47,267 bases of DNA from Terriglobales bacterium. GTDB taxonomy: Bacteria; Acidobacteriota; Terriglobia; Terriglobales; Acidobacteriaceae. Shown in pieces: positions 12,480 through 23,118 of this stretch (position 1 is the first letter of the stretch; every line of letters starts with the position of its first letter). The position numbers and the translations under genes are program-made. The stretch covers positions 1 to 47,267 of the forward strand of contig DASTZZ010000117.1 of assembly GCA_035764005.1 (NCBI GenBank). Reading direction: 5' to 3'. The notes beneath the pieces are model-generated. The model did not search any database, had not been told where the DNA came from, and saw only the letters and a list, made by a program, of their open reading frames with translations.

Positions 12480-13652
12480 TCAACCGGCTGAGGCTCGCAG
12501 TTCAGGCACGCTCTCTGCAACTTCCAGGGCTTCGGTGAGATCGGCGATCAGATCGTCGGCATTTTCGATCCCGATGGAAAGTCGAATCAGATCTACCGGC
12601 AGCTGCCGTTGTGACGCAACCTGCGGCGGCACGCTCGCATGCGACATCCGACCCGGCAAGCTTACTGACGATTGTAGCCCGCCAAAGCTGACAGTGATGG
12701 GAAACAGCTTAAGCGATTCGACCACCTGTCGAGACGTTTCGATCGAGCCCGTCTCGAAGCTCACGACAGCCCCGTTTCCGCGTGCCTGCCGGACATGAAT
12801 TCCGAAGCTCTTCTTCTCCAGCAGCGATGGGTAATAGACGCGCTTCACGCCGGGATGGCTGCAAAGAAATTGCGCGATCTGAGCGGCATTGGCCTGTTGG
12901 CGCTCCAGGCGCACACTCAGAGTCTTGATTCCACGCAGCAGAAGATAAGAATCGAATGGTCCCAAAACGGCACCTTCGCCGTTTTGAATCAGGTACAGAT
13001 CTTCCGCAAGCTGCGCGTCGCGAACGATGACTGCTCCAGCAATCACGTCGCTGTGTCCGCAGAGGAACTTGGTCGCCGAGTGGACCACGATGTCGGCCCC
13101 AAGGGTCAGCGGATTTTGCAGGTAGGGAGAGAGCATGGTGTTATCGACGCAGAGTAGAGCATTGTGCTGATGGGCAACATGCGCCAAACCCGCGATATCG
13201 ACGACCTTCAGCAGCGGATTCGTGGGAGTCTCGATATGAACCAGACGAGTGCGCGGTCCAAAGGCTCGGACAAAGTCTTCTCCCGTTGTGCCCTGCACGT
13301 ATCGCACAGAAATCTCCGAGCGCTTCAGGATTTTCGAGAACAGGCGGCACGTCCCGCCGTACACGTCATCTACCGCGAGAATCTCGTCTCCAGGACGCAG
13401 CAGGCGAGTCACGGCGGCAAGCGCCGCGAGACCGCTGGCAAAGGCAAAGGCGCGGGTTCCATGTTCGAGCTCCGCGAGCTGCTGTTCCAAAACAGCACGA
13501 GTAGGATTGCCGCTTCGCGAATAGTCGTACTCGCTGAATTCGAGGGCGCCTTCTTGCTCGAAGGTGGCGGTCTGGTAAATCGGAGTCGTAATAGCGCGGT
13601 GCCGGTCGCCCGGACAACCGGCAGATTGAACCAATTTCGTATCGATTTTCAT
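12480..13652 (-). CDS. PLP-dependent trans-sulfuration enzyme, cystathionine beta-lyase-like
   Basis: 390 residues of the Cys/Met-metabolism PLP family (aspartate aminotransferase fold). Visible motifs are the N-terminal PIYQTATFEQEG, YSRSGNPTRAVLEQQLAELE, FASGLAALAAV, DDVYGGTCRLF, the ETPTNPLLKVVDI block, DNTMLSPYLQNPL, and the PLP-lysine site VHSATKFLCGHSD. SLPGRMSHASVP and LIRLSIGIENADDL close the protein. Members act as cystathionine gamma-synthase, beta-lyase or gamma-lyase, and sequence alone does not separate these safely. Because another family member heads the same operon, I infer that this one is the beta-lyase step giving homocysteine. The ATG overlaps the stop of the upstream aspartokinase-homoserine dehydrogenase gene by four bases, indicating translational coupling. 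Confidence 0.85.
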   Translation of the reverse strand: MKIDTKLVQSAGCPGDRHRAITTPIYQTATFEQEGALEFSEYDYSRSGNPTRAVLEQQLAELEHGTRAFAFASGLAALAAVTRLLRPGDEILAVDDVYGGTCRLFSKILKRSEISVRYVQGTTGEDFVRAFGPRTRLVHIETPTNPLLKVVDIAGLAHVAHQHNALLCVDNTMLSPYLQNPLTLGADIVVHSATKFLCGHSDVIAGAVIVRDAQLAEDLYLIQNGEGAVLGPFDSYLLLRGIKTLSVRLERQQANAAQIAQFLCSHPGVKRVYYPSLLEKKSFGIHVRQARGNGAVVSFETGSIETSRQVVESLKLFPITVSFGGLQSSVSLPGRMSHASVPPQVASQRQLPVDLIRLSIGIENADDLIADLTEALEVAESVPELRASAG

Positions 13653-15409
13653 AACGCTAACGCCTCCTCGCCTGCACCAACGGCGGCTGCTACTGCGATC
13701 TTTGCTGAGTGTTCTTGCTCATGCTCATCCGCGATCCGCCGCCGTCCGCGAACCAAGCTCCACAGATCGCCAAAAACGGCTTCCGTCGTCGGCCAGCGGC
13801 CTGCGCCCTTGCCGTGCAAGATGTGAGTCTTGTCTCCGGTGGTCGTTACGGCCACACAGTTCTCTTCGCGATTCGTATTCGCCAGAGCATGCCCTGCTTC
13901 GAGCACGACGGGTTTGACTTCCGCCGTGATGCGATCACCCTCGCGATGCAACGATCCAACGAGTCGCACGGCTGAGCCAGACTTGGATAAATCGAACACA
14001 TGTCGCGGGTCGATTTCGGTGATTCCGACGCGATGAACGGATGTAAACGGCAGGTCCACTCCGAATGCGGCGCGCGCGATCAGCACCAGCTTGCAAGCCA
14101 CGTCGCTGCCGTCGAGATCGGCCGACGGATCAGCTTCGGCCAGTCCGCACGTTTGGGCCTGTGCCACTGCCTGCTCGAAGGGAATACCGCGAGCAAGCTC
14201 GTGCAGGATGAAGTTCGTGGTGCCGTTGAGCACGCCTTCTACGGTCTGGATTTCGTGCTCACGAGCGATCCGATGAAGTGTTTCCAAAACGGGAACTGCG
14301 CCGCCGACTGCCGCTGAGCAGAGTAGCTCGACCCCGTTCTGTTCAGCGATCTGATGCAGCTCAGGATTATTGGCTAACGCAGCTTTGTTTGCGGTGACAA
14401 CGTGCTTACCCGCATTCAGCGCCGCGCGAATGCAATCGGCAGCCGGCTCGATACCTCCGAGGGCTTCGACAACGATGTCGCAGTCGCGATTCACGACATC
14501 CCAAACGTCGGTTGAAAGAAAGCTCTGTGGAACCGTCTCCTCAGGGCGATGCAGATTGCGAACCACGATCCCTACAACGTCGAACAACTCTGACTGAGCC
14601 GCAAGTTCCTGATACACGCCGTAACCGACGGTTCCCAAGCCTAATAGCGCTACGCGCACGCGATCGCGCTTTGCTCGCGCTGGAAAGAATCTGGTGCTCT
14701 CAGCTCCAACAATCGTCGCCTGCTCCGATGCGAGCGCCGCTACTTCGAAGCTCTGACTATGCTCGCGAGCGAAGCGCAGAGCTTTCTGCTGAATAATGCG
14801 CCCGCCGATCGCTAGCGCATCTTCCCAGGTCAAAGAGGCATAACACCGCGCAGAGCTCACGTGCGGATCGTGGTCATAGACGCCGTCAACGTCCTTGAGC
14901 AGCCGGCAACCGCCTCGGAGGTGAACAGCGAGAAAAAGGGCGCTTAAGTCTGAACCCCCACGGCCGAGAAGAGACGTTCGTCCATCCTGCATCTGGCCAA
15001 TGAAACCAGGCACAACGGCAACACGCGAGTTATCGAGGGCCTTGCGAATCGCGCCGACATTGAGGCGAACCGGTTCGGCGTTGAGCACGCGGCCGCTAGT
15101 ACGAAGGCCCAAACGTGAAGGATCAAACGCGCTCGCGGGAATTCCGGCGCGGTCGAGTGCCAGAGCGAGCAACGCCGCAGCGCGTTTTTCTCCCGTGGAG
15201 AGCAGAAGAGCGAGCGCCCCCTCTGGAGGCTGCTCGGAATATTCGCGGGCCGAGGCAAGGAGTTGATCGGTGGTCTTTCCAAAAGCGGAGACGACTGCCA
15301 CGACGGAGTATCCATCGCGCAGCCAGCGATAGATTTCGTGAACAGCGCGCGGCAGATCCGCCTCGCTGCGCAGCACCGAACTGCCGAACTTGAGGACAAT
15401 TACGCGCAT
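13649..15409 (-). CDS. Bifunctional aspartokinase-homoserine dehydrogenase lacking ACT domains (MetL/ThrA-like)
   Basis: 586 residues, far shorter than the roughly 810 of E. coli ThrA or MetL. Residues 1 to about 235 are an aspartokinase catalytic domain: VIVLKFGSSVLRSE, VSAFGKTTDQLL, STGEKRAAALL, and the ATP/aspartate loop LLGRGGSDLSALFLAVHL with LLKDVDGVYDHDP. A linker of about 20 residues follows, and the homoserine dehydrogenase begins near residue 251 with VRVALLGLGTVGYGVYQEL (first Gly of GLGTVG is 257). ALGGIEPAADCIRAALNAGK, VVTANKAALA, AAVGGAVPVLETLHR, VLNGTTNFIL and AEADPSADLDGSDVACKL complete it. No ACT regulatory domain fits between the halves. The protein would catalyse the first and third steps from aspartate to homoserine. 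Its ATG overlaps the upstream gene by 10 bases and its stop overlaps the next start. Confidence 0.92.
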   Translation of the reverse strand: MRVIVLKFGSSVLRSEADLPRAVHEIYRWLRDGYSVVAVVSAFGKTTDQLLASAREYSEQPPEGALALLLSTGEKRAAALLALALDRAGIPASAFDPSRLGLRTSGRVLNAEPVRLNVGAIRKALDNSRVAVVPGFIGQMQDGRTSLLGRGGSDLSALFLAVHLRGGCRLLKDVDGVYDHDPHVSSARCYASLTWEDALAIGGRIIQQKALRFAREHSQSFEVAALASEQATIVGAESTRFFPARAKRDRVRVALLGLGTVGYGVYQELAAQSELFDVVGIVVRNLHRPEETVPQSFLSTDVWDVVNRDCDIVVEALGGIEPAADCIRAALNAGKHVVTANKAALANNPELHQIAEQNGVELLCSAAVGGAVPVLETLHRIAREHEIQTVEGVLNGTTNFILHELARGIPFEQAVAQAQTCGLAEADPSADLDGSDVACKLVLIARAAFGVDLPFTSVHRVGITEIDPRHVFDLSKSGSAVRLVGSLHREGDRITAEVKPVVLEAGHALANTNREENCVAVTTTGDKTHILHGKGAGRWPTTEAVFGDLWSLVRGRRRIADEHEQEHSAKIAVAAAVGAGEEALAL

Positions 15410-16593
15410 GCCGCGCTCCTCTCGGTGCTACAGCTCTCGGCCTTCTCGAGCGCCTGCTCGAGATCGGCGATGATGTCCGAAGCGTCTTCGAGTCCAACCG
15501 ACAGCCGGATCAGTCCGTCAGGAATGCCGAGCGCAACGCGCGTCTCTGGCGGAATATCCGCGTGAGTCATGCTCGCGGGGTGCGTAATCAACGTCTCGGC
15601 CGCGCCGAGATTTTCCGCAAGCGAGCAAAGCTTTACGGATTTCATCAGTTCTAAGGCAGCCGGCGTGCCGCCATTCACCTCGAAGGAGAGCATTCCGCCG
15701 TGCGCAACGTGCTGACGGCAAGCTAGCTCGTACTGCGGAAACGAGCGCAGTCCGGGGTAGGAGACGCGTTGTACCGTTGGGTGCTGTTCAAGCCAGCTCG
15801 CAACCGTGAGTGCATTTTGGGAATGGCGTTCAAGACGCATGCTCAGCGTCTTCAGTCCGCGCTGAGTCAGCCACGATTCGAGTGGCGACTGAATACAGCC
15901 AATGGTCTTGCGCACGAGTCGGAAGCGCTCTAGCAGAGCTTCATCCTTCGTAGCGAGCGATCCGCCGACGGTGGCGTTGTGACCCTCGATGTACTTGGTA
16001 GTCGAAAGCACGCTGATGTCGGCGCCGAGCTCGAACACAGGCTGGAGCGCGGCGGTGAGAAAGGTGTTGTCAACGGCCAGCAACACGTCTGCTTTGCGGG
16101 CTACCGAAGAGACCGCCGCGATGTCAGTGAGTTTCAGAGTGGGATTCGCCGGCGTCTCGATGAAGATCAGTTTGGTCCGAGACTCCACCGCGGCGGCAAC
16201 TGCGGCAACGTTAGCTGTGTCGACAAAGCTTACCCGCGCTCCAAACCCTTCGAGCACCTGGCGAAAGAGACGGACGGTGCCGCCATACACAACGTCGGAA
16301 ATGATGACGTGATCGCCCTGTTTCAAAATGGAAAGGAAGAGCGTGCTTATTGCGGCCATGCCGGTAGAGAAGCAAAGGGTCGGCGCTGTCTCAAGCGATC
16401 CAAGAACATCTTCCAGCGCCGAAACCGTCGGATTGGCCGCACGCGAATAGGTGAATCCCTTGTGAACGCCAACTGCTTCCTGAACGAATGTCGTGGATTG
16501 ATAAATCGGGGTAAGGATGGCGCCGGTGGCGGAATCGGGGGGCTGCGTGCCGTGAATGGTCCGGGTACAAAGACCGCGATTGTCTGAAGACAT
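15400..16593 (-). CDS. PLP-dependent trans-sulfuration enzyme, cystathionine gamma-synthase-like
   Basis: 397 residues. Family motifs are TRTIHGTQPPDSATGAILTP, IYQSTTFVQE, YSRAANPTVSALEDVLGSLE, FSTGMAAISTLFLSILKQGD, DVVYGGTVRLFRQVLE, ETPANPTLKLTDI, DNTFLTAALQPVFELGADI, the PLP-lysine site LSTTKYIEGHNATVGGS, LGAAETLITHPASMTHADIP and LIRLSVGLEDASDII. It would join an activated homoserine to cysteine giving cystathionine (or take sulfide directly), in the cytoplasm. It heads a three-gene operon and has a strong site, CAGGAGGATTC, before the ATG at 16593. The gene order (synthase followed by aspartokinase-homoserine dehydrogenase) matches the E. coli metB-metL pair. A structured leader with a small Met-rich ORF lies directly upstream. 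Confidence 0.87.
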   Translation of the reverse strand: MSSDNRGLCTRTIHGTQPPDSATGAILTPIYQSTTFVQEAVGVHKGFTYSRAANPTVSALEDVLGSLETAPTLCFSTGMAAISTLFLSILKQGDHVIISDVVYGGTVRLFRQVLEGFGARVSFVDTANVAAVAAAVESRTKLIFIETPANPTLKLTDIAAVSSVARKADVLLAVDNTFLTAALQPVFELGADISVLSTTKYIEGHNATVGGSLATKDEALLERFRLVRKTIGCIQSPLESWLTQRGLKTLSMRLERHSQNALTVASWLEQHPTVQRVSYPGLRSFPQYELACRQHVAHGGMLSFEVNGGTPAALELMKSVKLCSLAENLGAAETLITHPASMTHADIPPETRVALGIPDGLIRLSVGLEDASDIIADLEQALEKAESCSTERSAACA

Positions 16594-16639
16594 GAATCCT
16601 CCTGCGTAAGCTATGAAATTTGCGCTGAAAATACGAAGA

Positions 16640-16659
16640 CCGCCGGGATCCCCAGGCGG
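16640..16659 (-). terminator. Candidate attenuator stem in the met-operon leader
   Basis: On the minus strand CCGCC (16659-16655) and GGCGG (16644-16640) form a GC-only stem around UGGGGAUCCC, followed by UCUUCGUAUUUUC. The U-tract is interrupted, so this is a weak intrinsic terminator at best. It lies 33 bases after the leader ORF stop and 46 bases before the first structural gene. Its left arm can instead pair with GGCGG inside the leader ORF (16721-16717). Confidence 0.45.
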
Positions 16660-16662
16660 CCG

Positions 16663-16760
16663 CTCACGTCAGGAAGGTTATTGCTCGACTCTCACGTTCC
16701 CGATGTGGACAGGTCACCGCCCGGGGTGCACATGCCCATATACATTCGGGTTCCTGTGAG
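16663..16760 (-). promoter_or_regulatory. Switchable stem-loop leader upstream of the trans-sulfuration operon
   Basis: On the minus strand CUCAC (16760-16756) pairs with GUGAG (16695-16691), and CCCGA (16750-16746) pairs with UCGGG (16703-16699). A GACU/AGUC pair extends the base, and UGUG/CACA with CACC/GGUG extend the top. The 10-base segment CUCACAGGAA (16760-16751) has a competing partner downstream, UUCCUG-ACG-UGAG (16675-16663), which gives ten pairs with a three-base bulge next to the attenuator stem. The two pairings exclude each other, or form a pseudoknot if only the internal-loop bases are used. The core motifs of the SAM-I and SAM-II riboswitches as I know them are absent. Confidence 0.6.
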
Positions 16761-16769
16761 AGGAGTCAT
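16692..16769 (-). CDS. Putative 25-residue leader peptide, Met- and Thr-rich
   Basis: The ORF runs from the ATG at 16769 to a TGA at 16692 and begins MTPLTGTRMYMGMCTPGGD. It has four Met (residues 1, 9, 11, 13), one Cys (14) and six Thr in 25 residues. GGGAG lies nine bases before the ATG. Met and Thr both derive from homoserine, whose synthesis the operon encodes, and Cys supplies the sulfur. The codons for Met 9-13 lie inside the apical part of the leader stem, and the stop codon overlaps the 3' strand of its base stem. This is the layout expected of ribosome-mediated attenuation. I do not recognise the peptide from a named family; the ORF could be accidental in a protein-free RNA switch. 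Confidence 0.55.
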   Translation of the reverse strand: MTPLTGTRMYMGMCTPGGDLSTSGT

Positions 16770-16854
16770 TGAGGCTCACTCCCGCTAGCTGCGGGTTAAG
16801 GTGATTCTACACAATGGGGCGGGTCTGTCAACTTAGATGGGGGGCGTTCACTTC

Positions 16855-16966
16855 GTGGACAAAAAGTGGACTTTGTGGACTGAGTGGACCTTGTGGATGA
16901 TAAGGCTCATGAAGAATGGCCCTTGCCCATTCCGTCCACCTAGTCCACTGAGTCTACCCAGTCCGC
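16855..16966. repeat. Two facing arrays of GTGGAC/GTCCAC with 9-bp period
   Basis: GTGGAC-type hexamers lie at 16855, 16866, 16875, 16884 and 16893 (GTGGAT); the last four are spaced exactly nine bases apart. The inverse hexamers GTCCAC, GTCCAC, GTCTAC and GTCCGC lie at 16934, 16943, 16952 and 16961, again every nine bases. The halves can pair as a long stem (16866-16898 with 16934-16966). The array is just behind the stop of the LytTR gene, so it may be its terminator, but the strict 9-bp period also suits a repetitive protein-binding site. Confidence 0.8.
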
Positions 16967-20686: not shown

Positions 20687-20700
20687 CACCTTCACAACTC

Positions 20701-20885
20701 AACGCGGATCGCGCGATCCCGGTGTGCCGGGATCAGGGAAGCGGGTGAAAATCCCGCGCTGCCGCGCAACTGTTAGCGAGTTAAGGAGACCCGAACGCCA
20801 CTGCCCCGCTTTGCGGGACGGGAAGGTGGGTCATCCGGAGCCCGGTTCATCGGGCCGCTCGTAAGCCAGGAGACCGGCGCGAACC
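20701..20885 (+). ncRNA. Cobalamin (B12) riboswitch
   Basis: The conserved elements occur in the right order: the P3 stem GATCCCGG..CCGGGATC (20716-20734), AGGGAAGCGGGTGAAAATCC, GCTGCCGCGCAACTGTTAGCG, the GCCACT box (20797-20802), GGGAAGGTGGG, and the 3' core AGCCAGGAGACCGGC (20864-20878). The AGGAGG of the receptor gene follows at 20914. The family binds adenosylcobalamin or related forms and shuts expression when B12 is plentiful. Sequestration of the ribosome site is the likely mechanism, as no clear terminator is seen between the aptamer and the gene. Confidence 0.95.
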
Positions 20886-20925
20886 GTACAACACCAATCC
20901 CACTCGCGTGCACAGGAGGATTGCC

Positions 20926-23118
20926 GTGCGGAAGTCCCTTCTTTTTCTGCTCTTGGTCTCGCCGGTTCTGGCGTCAGCCACCGATTTCACAGTTCATGTC
21001 ACCGATCCGTCCGGCAGCGCCGTTGCCGGAGCGCGCGTGACTATCTATCGCGCATCGAACAGCGCGCAGCTCGCTAGTACCAATTCGGGACCAGATGGTT
21101 CCGCGACGTTCCACAAGCTTCCGCCTGAGCGGCTTCGCATTCAAGTGCTTGCGCCGGGATTTGCTGAAAGCATTCGGGAAACAGGAGAGCAATCCGAGCC
21201 GGTTCTGAACGTCGCTCTCAAGATTGCAGCCCGAAATGAAACTGTCGTAGTTACGGCGACGGAGACCCCGCTAACCGCGGATCAAACCGGAGCGCCGGTG
21301 GAGGTTGTCGATCGCTCCGTCCTAACCAATCGTCAGCCGGTCGAGGCAGCCGACGCGATCCGCTTCCTTCCCGGGGCAATCGTCAACGATGCGGGACGGC
21401 GCGGGGGCATCGCTTCGCTGTTCGTACGAGGTGGAGACTCGCGCTATAACAAGGTCATTGTCGACGGAGTTCCCGTAAACGAACCCGGTGGAACGTTCGA
21501 CTTCGGCGTCGTTCCCACAATCGGTGCCGACCGCTTCGAATTTGTGCGCGGGCCCGAGAGCGTGCTTTACGGCTCGGATGCGCTTACCAGTGTGGTGCAG
21601 ATGTTCAGCGCCACGGGCACGACGCGTACTCCTGAGCTCACGCTGAGCGCCGACGGTGGAACATTCTCCACCGCAACGGGATCTGCGGCGCTTGCAGGCG
21701 CATACGGAGGTTTTGACTACAACATATTCGGCGAGCAGTTCAACACCGCGGGACAAGGTATTAACGACGATTACTCGAACTCTGCCCAGGGCGCGAATGT
21801 AGGCGTGCGCCTTGCGCCTCGAGCACTTTTTCGTCTGCGCACGCGGCACTCCAATGAACGGAGTGGAGTGCAGTCGTTCTACAACTTTAATGGTCAGCAA
21901 CTGATTCCTCCTGATACCGACCAGTTCGCGCGCCAAAATAACTTCCTCGCCGACGGCGATCTCACCGTTACTGCCCCAAACCAGTGGAAGCATAGCTTCA
22001 GCGGATACGAGTATCACCATGTGCGCGAGAACGTAGATCGCGTAATGGACCCGGGCCGCGAGAACCCATTCGGGAATTTCGATTTTCCATTCTCAAGCTA
22101 TGCCGATTTCAATCGCGCAGGATTCATGTATCACGGCGAATTCGATCCGCGGCTGTGGGTGCGGACCAACTATGGATATGAATTCGAAGATGAGAACGGC
22201 TTCATCGGTGATTTAACCGCCCTACCGCTAACGCATGGTCTCCGCCGCAACCACGCCGTTTACGGCGAGCAGATCTTCACGTTCTCGCGGTTTTCTCTGA
22301 TAGGCGGTGGACGCTTCATTCACAACGAGAGCTTCGGGAATCGCGGAGTACCGCGTGCAGCGCTTACCTTCCTCGCACTGCGCGGAGGGGAAACCTTCAG
22401 CGGTACGCGGCTGCGCTTTGCCTATGGCGAAGGCATCAAGGAACCGAGCTTTGATGAGAGCTTTGGCATTGGCTCGTTCTTTATTATTTCCAATCCGAAC
22501 CTGAGGCCAGAGCAGAGCCGCACCCTCGAAGCTGCCGTAGTTCAGAATTTCTTCGGCGATCGCTACTCGTTGTCGGCGGGTTACTACAATAACCTCTTCC
22601 GCAATCAGATCGAGTTCACCTCCGATCCCACCACGTTCGTCGGTCAATTCATCAACTTGAATCGCTCGCTGGCGGATGGCGCGGAAGTCGAATTCCATGG
22701 CCGACCGGCAGCAAGACTGAGCTTCGATGCTTCTTACACCTACACCTCCAGCCAGATCCTGCAATCGCCCCTGGCAACGGATCCGTTGCTCGAAGCAGGA
22801 GCGCCATTGCTGCGGCGACCGCGCCATGCCGGTTCGGCGACCGTCAACTACTTCTCGCGGAAGTGGGGTGCAAATTTAAGCGCTGTAGGAATTGGACGAA
22901 GGACCGATTCGGACTTCCTCGGCCTTGTGCCACATGTAGACCACGCGGCTGGATACGTCCGCGCTGACGCAAGCGGATGGTATGAGCTTCAGCGGCATGT
23001 CACGGCATTCTTGGGGATTGAGAATCTGCTCAATAAGCGTTACGAGGAAGCTGCGGGATTTCCGGCGCTCAAGGCGAATTTCCGTGCGGGATTGCGATTT
23101 CGATTCGGTGGAGAGTGA
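20926..23118 (+). CDS. TonB-dependent outer-membrane receptor, probably for cobalamin (BtuB-like)
   Basis: 730 residues from the GTG at 20926, fixed by AGGAGG at 20914-20919; a GTG at 20908 precedes that site. The signal peptide (RKSLLFLLLVSPVLASA) is followed by a carboxypeptidase-regulatory-like beta-sandwich (about residues 20-95: VHVTDPSGSAVAGARVTIYR, SATFHKLPPERLRIQVLAPGF). A TonB-box-like stretch NETVVVTATETP comes next, then the plug (VEAADAIRFLPGAIVND, SLFVRGGDSRYNKVIVDGVP, FEFVRGPESVLYGSDAL). The rest is a 22-strand-type barrel ending in NLLNKRYEEAAGFPALKANF and RAGLRFRF. The upstream B12 riboswitch makes cobalamin or a precursor the best substrate guess. No BtuCDF genes follow in the window. 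Confidence 0.9.
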   Translation: MRKSLLFLLLVSPVLASATDFTVHVTDPSGSAVAGARVTIYRASNSAQLASTNSGPDGSATFHKLPPERLRIQVLAPGFAESIRETGEQSEPVLNVALKIAARNETVVVTATETPLTADQTGAPVEVVDRSVLTNRQPVEAADAIRFLPGAIVNDAGRRGGIASLFVRGGDSRYNKVIVDGVPVNEPGGTFDFGVVPTIGADRFEFVRGPESVLYGSDALTSVVQMFSATGTTRTPELTLSADGGTFSTATGSAALAGAYGGFDYNIFGEQFNTAGQGINDDYSNSAQGANVGVRLAPRALFRLRTRHSNERSGVQSFYNFNGQQLIPPDTDQFARQNNFLADGDLTVTAPNQWKHSFSGYEYHHVRENVDRVMDPGRENPFGNFDFPFSSYADFNRAGFMYHGEFDPRLWVRTNYGYEFEDENGFIGDLTALPLTHGLRRNHAVYGEQIFTFSRFSLIGGGRFIHNESFGNRGVPRAALTFLALRGGETFSGTRLRFAYGEGIKEPSFDESFGIGSFFIISNPNLRPEQSRTLEAAVVQNFFGDRYSLSAGYYNNLFRNQIEFTSDPTTFVGQFINLNRSLADGAEVEFHGRPAARLSFDASYTYTSSQILQSPLATDPLLEAGAPLLRRPRHAGSATVNYFSRKWGANLSAVGIGRRTDSDFLGLVPHVDHAAGYVRADASGWYELQRHVTAFLGIENLLNKRYEEAAGFPALKANFRAGLRFRFGGE

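Follow-up and report, generated by a model that had tools for sequence, protein, structure and literature searches.

A candidate methionine attenuator in front of the metB operon of an acidobacterium

The DNA directly in front of a metB-like gene in a Terriglobales genome raises the question of how a methionine operon might be controlled at the RNA level. Leader-peptide attenuators are textbook regulators, but control of the methionine pathway is generally attributed to SAM riboswitches, T-boxes or repressors. A Met attenuator is surprising, since a cell short of methionine should also initiate less often at the leader ORF itself. The window (the whole 47,267-nt stretch of DNA that was analysed) carries such a candidate leader on its minus strand at 16594–16831. 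Judged from sequence comparison and computation, it is probably (roughly three chances in four) a ribosome-mediated attenuator sensing charged tRNA-Met, a switch of a known kind for which methionine examples are scarcely documented. If true, this would explain at the RNA level how methionine is controlled in Acidobacteriota.

The leader and its operon

The genes 3' of the leader are arranged in the order metB-like, aspartate kinase-homoserine dehydrogenase (AK-HSD) fusion and metC-like, and the slight overlap of their reading frames suggests one transcript. In the direction of transcription, the following features were recognized:

16804–16831, minus strand: promoter-like TTGACA (16831–16826), 16-nt spacer and TAGAAT (16809–16804), read in the sequence
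16781–16795, minus strand: 5' hairpin CCCGC-AGCTA-GCGGG, read in the sequence and present in the computed fold
16692–16769, minus strand: leader ORF of 25 codons, MTPLTGTRMYMGMCTPGGDLSTSGT and a stop, with Met codons 9 (16745–16743), 11 (16739–16737) and 13 (16733–16731)
16689–16762, minus strand: region 1:2 protector stem, enclosing the Met codons (fold, pairing in the alignment, permutation test)
16716–16726, minus strand: antiterminator 5' arm (region 2), CCCCGGGCGGU, codons 15–18 (stem search and covariation)
16662–16677, minus strand: anti-SD segment CCUUCCUGACGUGAGC (partner energies and permutation test)
16650–16660, minus strand: antiterminator 3' arm, which is also the terminator 5' arm (region 3), GCCGCCUGGGG (stem search and covariation)
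16628–16660, minus strand: terminator-like hairpin GCCGCC...GGCGGU (16660–16639) with an interrupted U-tract to 16628 (sequence, alignment, folding)
16597–16611, minus strand: metB ribosome-binding region GCUUACGCAGGAGGA, pairing with the anti-SD segment (fold and partner energies)
15400–16593, minus strand: metB-like gene (397 aa) of the cystathionine gamma-synthase/lyase family; best NCBIfam matches below the curated cut-offs
13649–15409, minus strand: AK-HSD fusion (586 aa); homoserine dehydrogenase model NF004976 above its cut-off, aspartate kinase models below theirs
12480–13652, minus strand: metC-like cystathionine beta-lyase (390 aa); TIGR01329 above its cut-off

The ORF, with three Met codons, one Cys and six Thr and a GGGAG (16783–16779) 9 nt 5' of the ATG, can be read directly in the DNA as originally described, and so can the GC stem and interrupted U-tract at 16660–16628. 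Transcription is expected, from the sequence, to start near 16797, and a promoter-like layout upstream of the ORF was also seen by eye in L006, L007 and L035. The 3' arm of the 5' hairpin overlaps the GGGAG of the leader, and inspection by eye indicated that its arms vary in concert in L006, L007, L035 and L091. The leader as a whole is more stable than shuffled sequences (z −3.35; 0 of 200 shuffles as good).

Several minor observations concern the surroundings. In L009, L043 and L045 the ATG of the leader ORF lies, by eye, a few bases past a −10-like box, so the leader mRNA is possibly nearly leaderless there. Upstream of the leader promoter, GTCCAC-rich repeats occupy 16850–16960, with partial matches elsewhere in the same genome (L003 on contig C19 and L004 on C121). 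An Rfam scan placed a cobalamin riboswitch (RF00174, 87.6 bits) at 20694–20896 on the plus strand, directly followed by a large ORF (20908–23118) that resembles, by eye, a TonB-dependent outer-membrane receptor.

Conservation of the reading frame and of the RNA pairings

The leader was compared in an alignment (A1) of 23 Terriglobales-type loci forming 22 distinct rows; the close relatives presumably belong to this order, their records giving the same family or titles such as Acidobacteriaceae. The Met codons 9, 11 and 13 are invariant in 23/23 loci, with variable codons between them. None of the 78 alignment columns of the ORF is gapped, against 18 of the 32 columns that follow, and the stop lies 17 codons past the first of the three Met codons in 21/23 loci, the exceptions being L038, where the stop is lost, and L085, which is one codon longer. 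The kept frame and stop distance argue for a translatable leader ORF upstream of the operon, its translation being predicted. When 15 loci of all lineages were aligned, the invariant columns fell on the three Met codons and on three positions of the antiterminator; both here and in A1, the control position holds codons for the pathway product. Thr and Cys codons vary, and L011 has no Thr at all; the original suggestion of combined Met/Thr sensing is rejected because the Thr codons are not conserved. Third codon positions in the A1 ORF are no freer than first and second ones, which suggests that much of the constraint on the ORF comes from RNA pairing.

The ten-pair partner proposed earlier for CUCACAGGAA (UUCCU...GUGAG, with a 3-nt bulge) is readable in the window, but CUCACAGGAA itself is not conserved. 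The mutually exclusive pair that is conserved consists of codons 15–18, CCCCGGGCGGU, with GCCGCCUGGGG, versus the terminator GCCGCC...GGCGGU. In A1, the antiterminator comprises 12 pairs with 95.8% of the cells standard, and its covariation score is 0.234 versus 0.173 after shuffling (0/500) and at most 0.076 when the arms are slid. Twelve cells are changed on both sides, a count reached in 0/500 shuffles; counted by pair, two pairs show changes on both sides, no more than shuffles do (355/500). The longest uninterrupted stem measures 9–15 bp in 29/30 loci (7 bp in L082) and begins 3–5 nt past the last Met codon in 28/30 (at +13 in L063 and +9 in L071). Its length was matched by 15/200 shuffles each for L079 and L082 and by at most 5 for the other 28 loci. 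Across lineages the sequences of the arms differ, yet they match each other: own partners gave a mean of −41.0 kcal/mol versus −34.1 for permuted ones, with 0/5000 permutations as good, in a test on 23 representatives. This and the other permutation tests ignore phylogeny, the representatives excluding near-identical loci.

The terminator-like hairpin is paired in 91.7% of the cells of A1, and its covariation is not beyond that of shuffles (147/500). The common arm makes antiterminator and terminator mutually exclusive; the exception is L063, a Polyangiaceae MAG, in which the antiterminator stem is present and no terminator sharing its arm was seen.

The stem that was predicted around the Met codons, with its base overlapping the ORF stop, can form and is present in the computed fold. 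It consists of CTCTCAC (16762–16756) with GTGAGAG (16695–16689) and CCCGA (16750–16746) with TCGGG (16703–16699), the latter part having 76.4% of its cells paired. In 16 representatives, own partners averaged −15.7 kcal/mol versus −12.5 for permuted ones (0/5000 as good). The stem covaries as a group rather than in every row, since it is no better than swapped partners in L009, L015, L082, L064 and L079.

A further helix covers the ribosome-binding site of metB in many relatives. In the computed fold of the window, it joins the segment after the ORF stop, CCUUCCUGACGUGAGC, to GCUUACGCAGGAGGA, and in L009 and L043 it is represented by TCTCCAATCG/CGATTGGAGA. Own pairs of this SD helix averaged −20.9 kcal/mol versus −15.0 for swapped ones in 30 loci, among which the metB start is misassigned in L018 and probably in L109; with L018 corrected, 0/5000 permutations were as good in 16 representatives. 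When each locus was tested by itself, the uninterrupted stem outperformed both shuffle controls at the 5% level in 14/25, L009 and L043 among them. The ungapped 7-bp stem of the window was matched by 21 and 31 of 300 shuffles and is not significant at 5%. The antiterminator duplex, when extended, also takes up the anti-SD segment, a GGGA(G) near the ORF stop resembling the ribosome-binding site, so the antiterminator state should also free metB translation, and a second, translational output via the ribosome-binding site of metB is likely.

Stalling at the Met codons could also act on this site alone, with the terminator-like hairpin not terminating at all. The covariation of the SD helix as a group speaks for such a purely translational attenuator, as does the lack of a clear U-tract in several relatives and its interruption in the window; against it stands the clear T-run that several relatives, above all the three Planctomycetota, have after a GC hairpin, and so does the lack of significance of the SD helix in 11/25 loci taken singly, the window included. 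We consider it unlikely, at perhaps one chance in eight.

Ribosome position and the choice of fold

That relatives keep both the Met codons and the surrounding RNA stems suggests an operon that is turned on when ribosomes wait for methionine. In the preferred reading, the tRNA-Met-sensing attenuator, scarce Met-tRNA would make the ribosome wait while its A site holds the first or second Met codon, a position in which it would disrupt the region 1:2 stem and leave codons 15–18 free. These codons could then capture the terminator's 5' arm, and RNA polymerase would read into metB. With plentiful Met-tRNA, the ribosome would advance over codons 15–18, the terminator would form, and transcription would stop. 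The anti-SD segment, lying between the ORF stop and the terminator, could pair with the ribosome-binding site of metB. Comparison of the loci supports the frame of the ORF, its Met codons, the antiterminator, the region 1:2 and SD helices as groups and the association with the gene; beyond this, we infer ribosome stalling, termination, a methionine response and translational output.

The effect of ribosome position was modelled in 30 loci by removing the ribosome-covered RNA, assumed to reach 15 nt beyond the first base of the codon in the P site, and folding the remainder to the end of the terminator, a procedure that leaves out co-transcriptional folding. When the A site held the first or second Met of the M-x-M-x-M motif, folding favoured the antiterminator in 58/60 cases, both misses being L008. 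The antiterminator was favoured in 8/30 loci with the ribosome at the third Met, the window not being among them, and in 3/90 cases with the ribosome 2–4 codons past the last Met, all three in L063; in L047 neither fold forms past Met. For the window, the calculation gives an antiterminator value of 1.00 with the ribosome at either of the first two Met codons; from the next codon onward the value is 0.03 or less. Placing the ribosome one codon ahead of the first Met likewise favoured the antiterminator, in 29/30 loci, so what the fold marks is a boundary past the second Met and not the Met codons themselves; that the ribosome would wait at Met is suggested by the conservation of these codons. 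With no ribosome on the leader, the terminator was at least as favoured in 13/30 loci.

The peptide itself might stall the ribosome by nascent-chain arrest at M-x-M-x-M-x-x-P-G, perhaps with methionine or SAM as a co-effector, and the stall would then set the RNA fold. In most members the Met codons are succeeded by P-G or L-G; RAPG, present in some, is given in PMC12992588 as the core of the arrest peptide ApcA. The same paper reports that RAPG placed in ApdP or SecM did not support arrest. The R-A-P-P/G core of the RAPP/RAPG arrest peptides is absent from the window, which has CTPGG, and from others with CTLGG. The P-G codons are part of the antiterminator arm too, which can explain their conservation; the change of Pro to Leu (CCA to CTA) mostly occurs alongside a change of the partner base (UA in five rows, UG in one), and a ribosome stalled at P-G would, by the occlusion geometry, mask the antiterminator. 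Arrest by the peptide is improbable as the explanation.

Known classes, comparable systems and distribution

Rfam, its SAM riboswitch classes included, gave no match to the leader at gathering score or up to an E-value of 5, and the SAM-type switch considered in the original prediction is not supported. In 60 of the 80 metB loci described below (L035–L094, with L095–L114 left out), Rfam at gathering scores returned only three tRNAs. Five leader peptides had no match in NCBIfam. Upstream of metB in Pyrinomonas (L070), a SAM-II-like element was found (28.1 bits, E-value 1.4 × 10−4, below the gathering score of 36), so the same gene is perhaps under different methionine-related RNA devices in related bacteria; sequence similar to this element was noticed by eye in L036 and L065. 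A new class of SAM-binding riboswitch containing an open frame by chance, for which the methionine-synthesis context and this SAM-II-like element before a metB homologue might be cited, is very improbable given the lack of any Rfam match, a frame with no indel and a nearly constant stop distance, and invariant columns that coincide with Met codons and antiterminator positions.

The enterobacterial attenuators (trp, his, thr, leu, ilv, phe) resemble the leader in having an ORF that contains regulatory codons, the alternative stems 1:2, 2:3 and 3:4, and a biosynthetic operon downstream. The leader differs from them in that methionine would be sensed, other codons stand between the Met codons in most members, the antiterminator arm lies inside the ORF directly past the Met codons, an extra SD helix is present, and the hosts are Acidobacteriota and other phyla. 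The SAM-II riboswitch (RF00521) is a ligand-binding RNA with no ORF, and it does not match the leader of the window.

In the open-access literature, no description of such a methionine leader was found, and the sole comparable claim is that for Streptomyces lividans metL. According to PMC8079986, metL is likewise a short ORF with Met codons and a proposed attenuator; it differs in preceding the metNIQ transport genes, in being transcribed leaderless and in having no P-G motif after alternating Met codons, and the paper reports no typical terminator. The 5'UTR of the Xanthomonas met operon is also methionine-responsive and belongs to a Gram-negative metA-metB-hom operon, but is described in PMC6230763 as partly SAM-I aptamer-like and mainly translational. 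For Actinobacteria, PMC1262725 reports no conserved RNA structure before methionine operons.

When 200 genomes of the order were searched at the DNA level, 33 had a match at an E-value of 0.1 or less. On inspection, 13 loci (L005–L016 and L018, the window included) proved to be leaders, while the others look like chance; identity was 81–84%, over the whole leader in two genomes of the same genus and over its core in other genera. A protein search yielded 80 metB relatives with flanks, and inspection of the upstream DNA revealed an in-frame M-x-M-x-M leader in 24 of them, L082 included: 17 close relatives, the Holophagales locus L064, the gp22 acidobacterium L079, L109, the Polyangiaceae MAG L063 and the Planctomycetota L067, L071 and L080. 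The motif of L109 recurs in L115, a genome from the phylum of the window. Conservation of ORF and stems in relatives, on which the original prediction had been staked, is found, and the comparative evidence supports its reading as a Met attenuator. L057, L095 and L098 were dropped since they have no P-G, and L059 and L073 were kept as weak candidates outside the leader count. In L059, the metB of Facilibium subflavum, the preceding ORF (2798 onwards) has a tandem MMM, and its codons show by eye an 11-bp fit with a downstream segment.

The antiterminator and the peptide motif recur before metB in Holophagales and Planctomycetota. One could envisage a multi-phylum Met attenuator in which a single decision of the ribosome governs termination and also frees the ribosome-binding site of metB, some lineages having lost the terminator and being only translational, and in which M-x-M-x-M-x-x-P-G may add nascent-chain sensing; this broader picture is tentative, and we consider it less likely than not. 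In the phylum of the planctomycete L067, a strict pattern was found in that genome alone (1/294), so the leader is rare there or the pattern too strict. A looser sequence pattern matched in 90/297 genomes, largely by chance because it is so short; among 50 such loci inspected (L157–L206), only L191 was a new leader, besides the known window and G028.

With a covariance model trained on 21 leader loci, 298 genomes of the order were searched under stricter filters. The model gave 39 hits in 37 genomes, 19 of these hits being its own training sequences, and 33 of the 39 lie before metB. Three others (L154–L156, about 24 bits), with no met gene, look false. The window's genome has one strong copy of the leader; two further matches there (19.2 and 14.5 bits) are unconvincing. 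Five leaders before metB (L143, L145, L150, L151 and L153) retain just two Met codons, lack a clear U-tract and have possibly lost their transcriptional branch. In G152, a genome with two copies, the leader L149 precedes a separate metC, whose product is a MetC homologue of 60% identity. The leader L125 (G457) stands before AK-HSD with, by eye, an apparent remnant of the MetB N-terminus, and behind L148 (G489:C108) no more than the first 50 residues of MetB are encoded; in these two, either metB was lost behind a kept leader or the assemblies contain errors.
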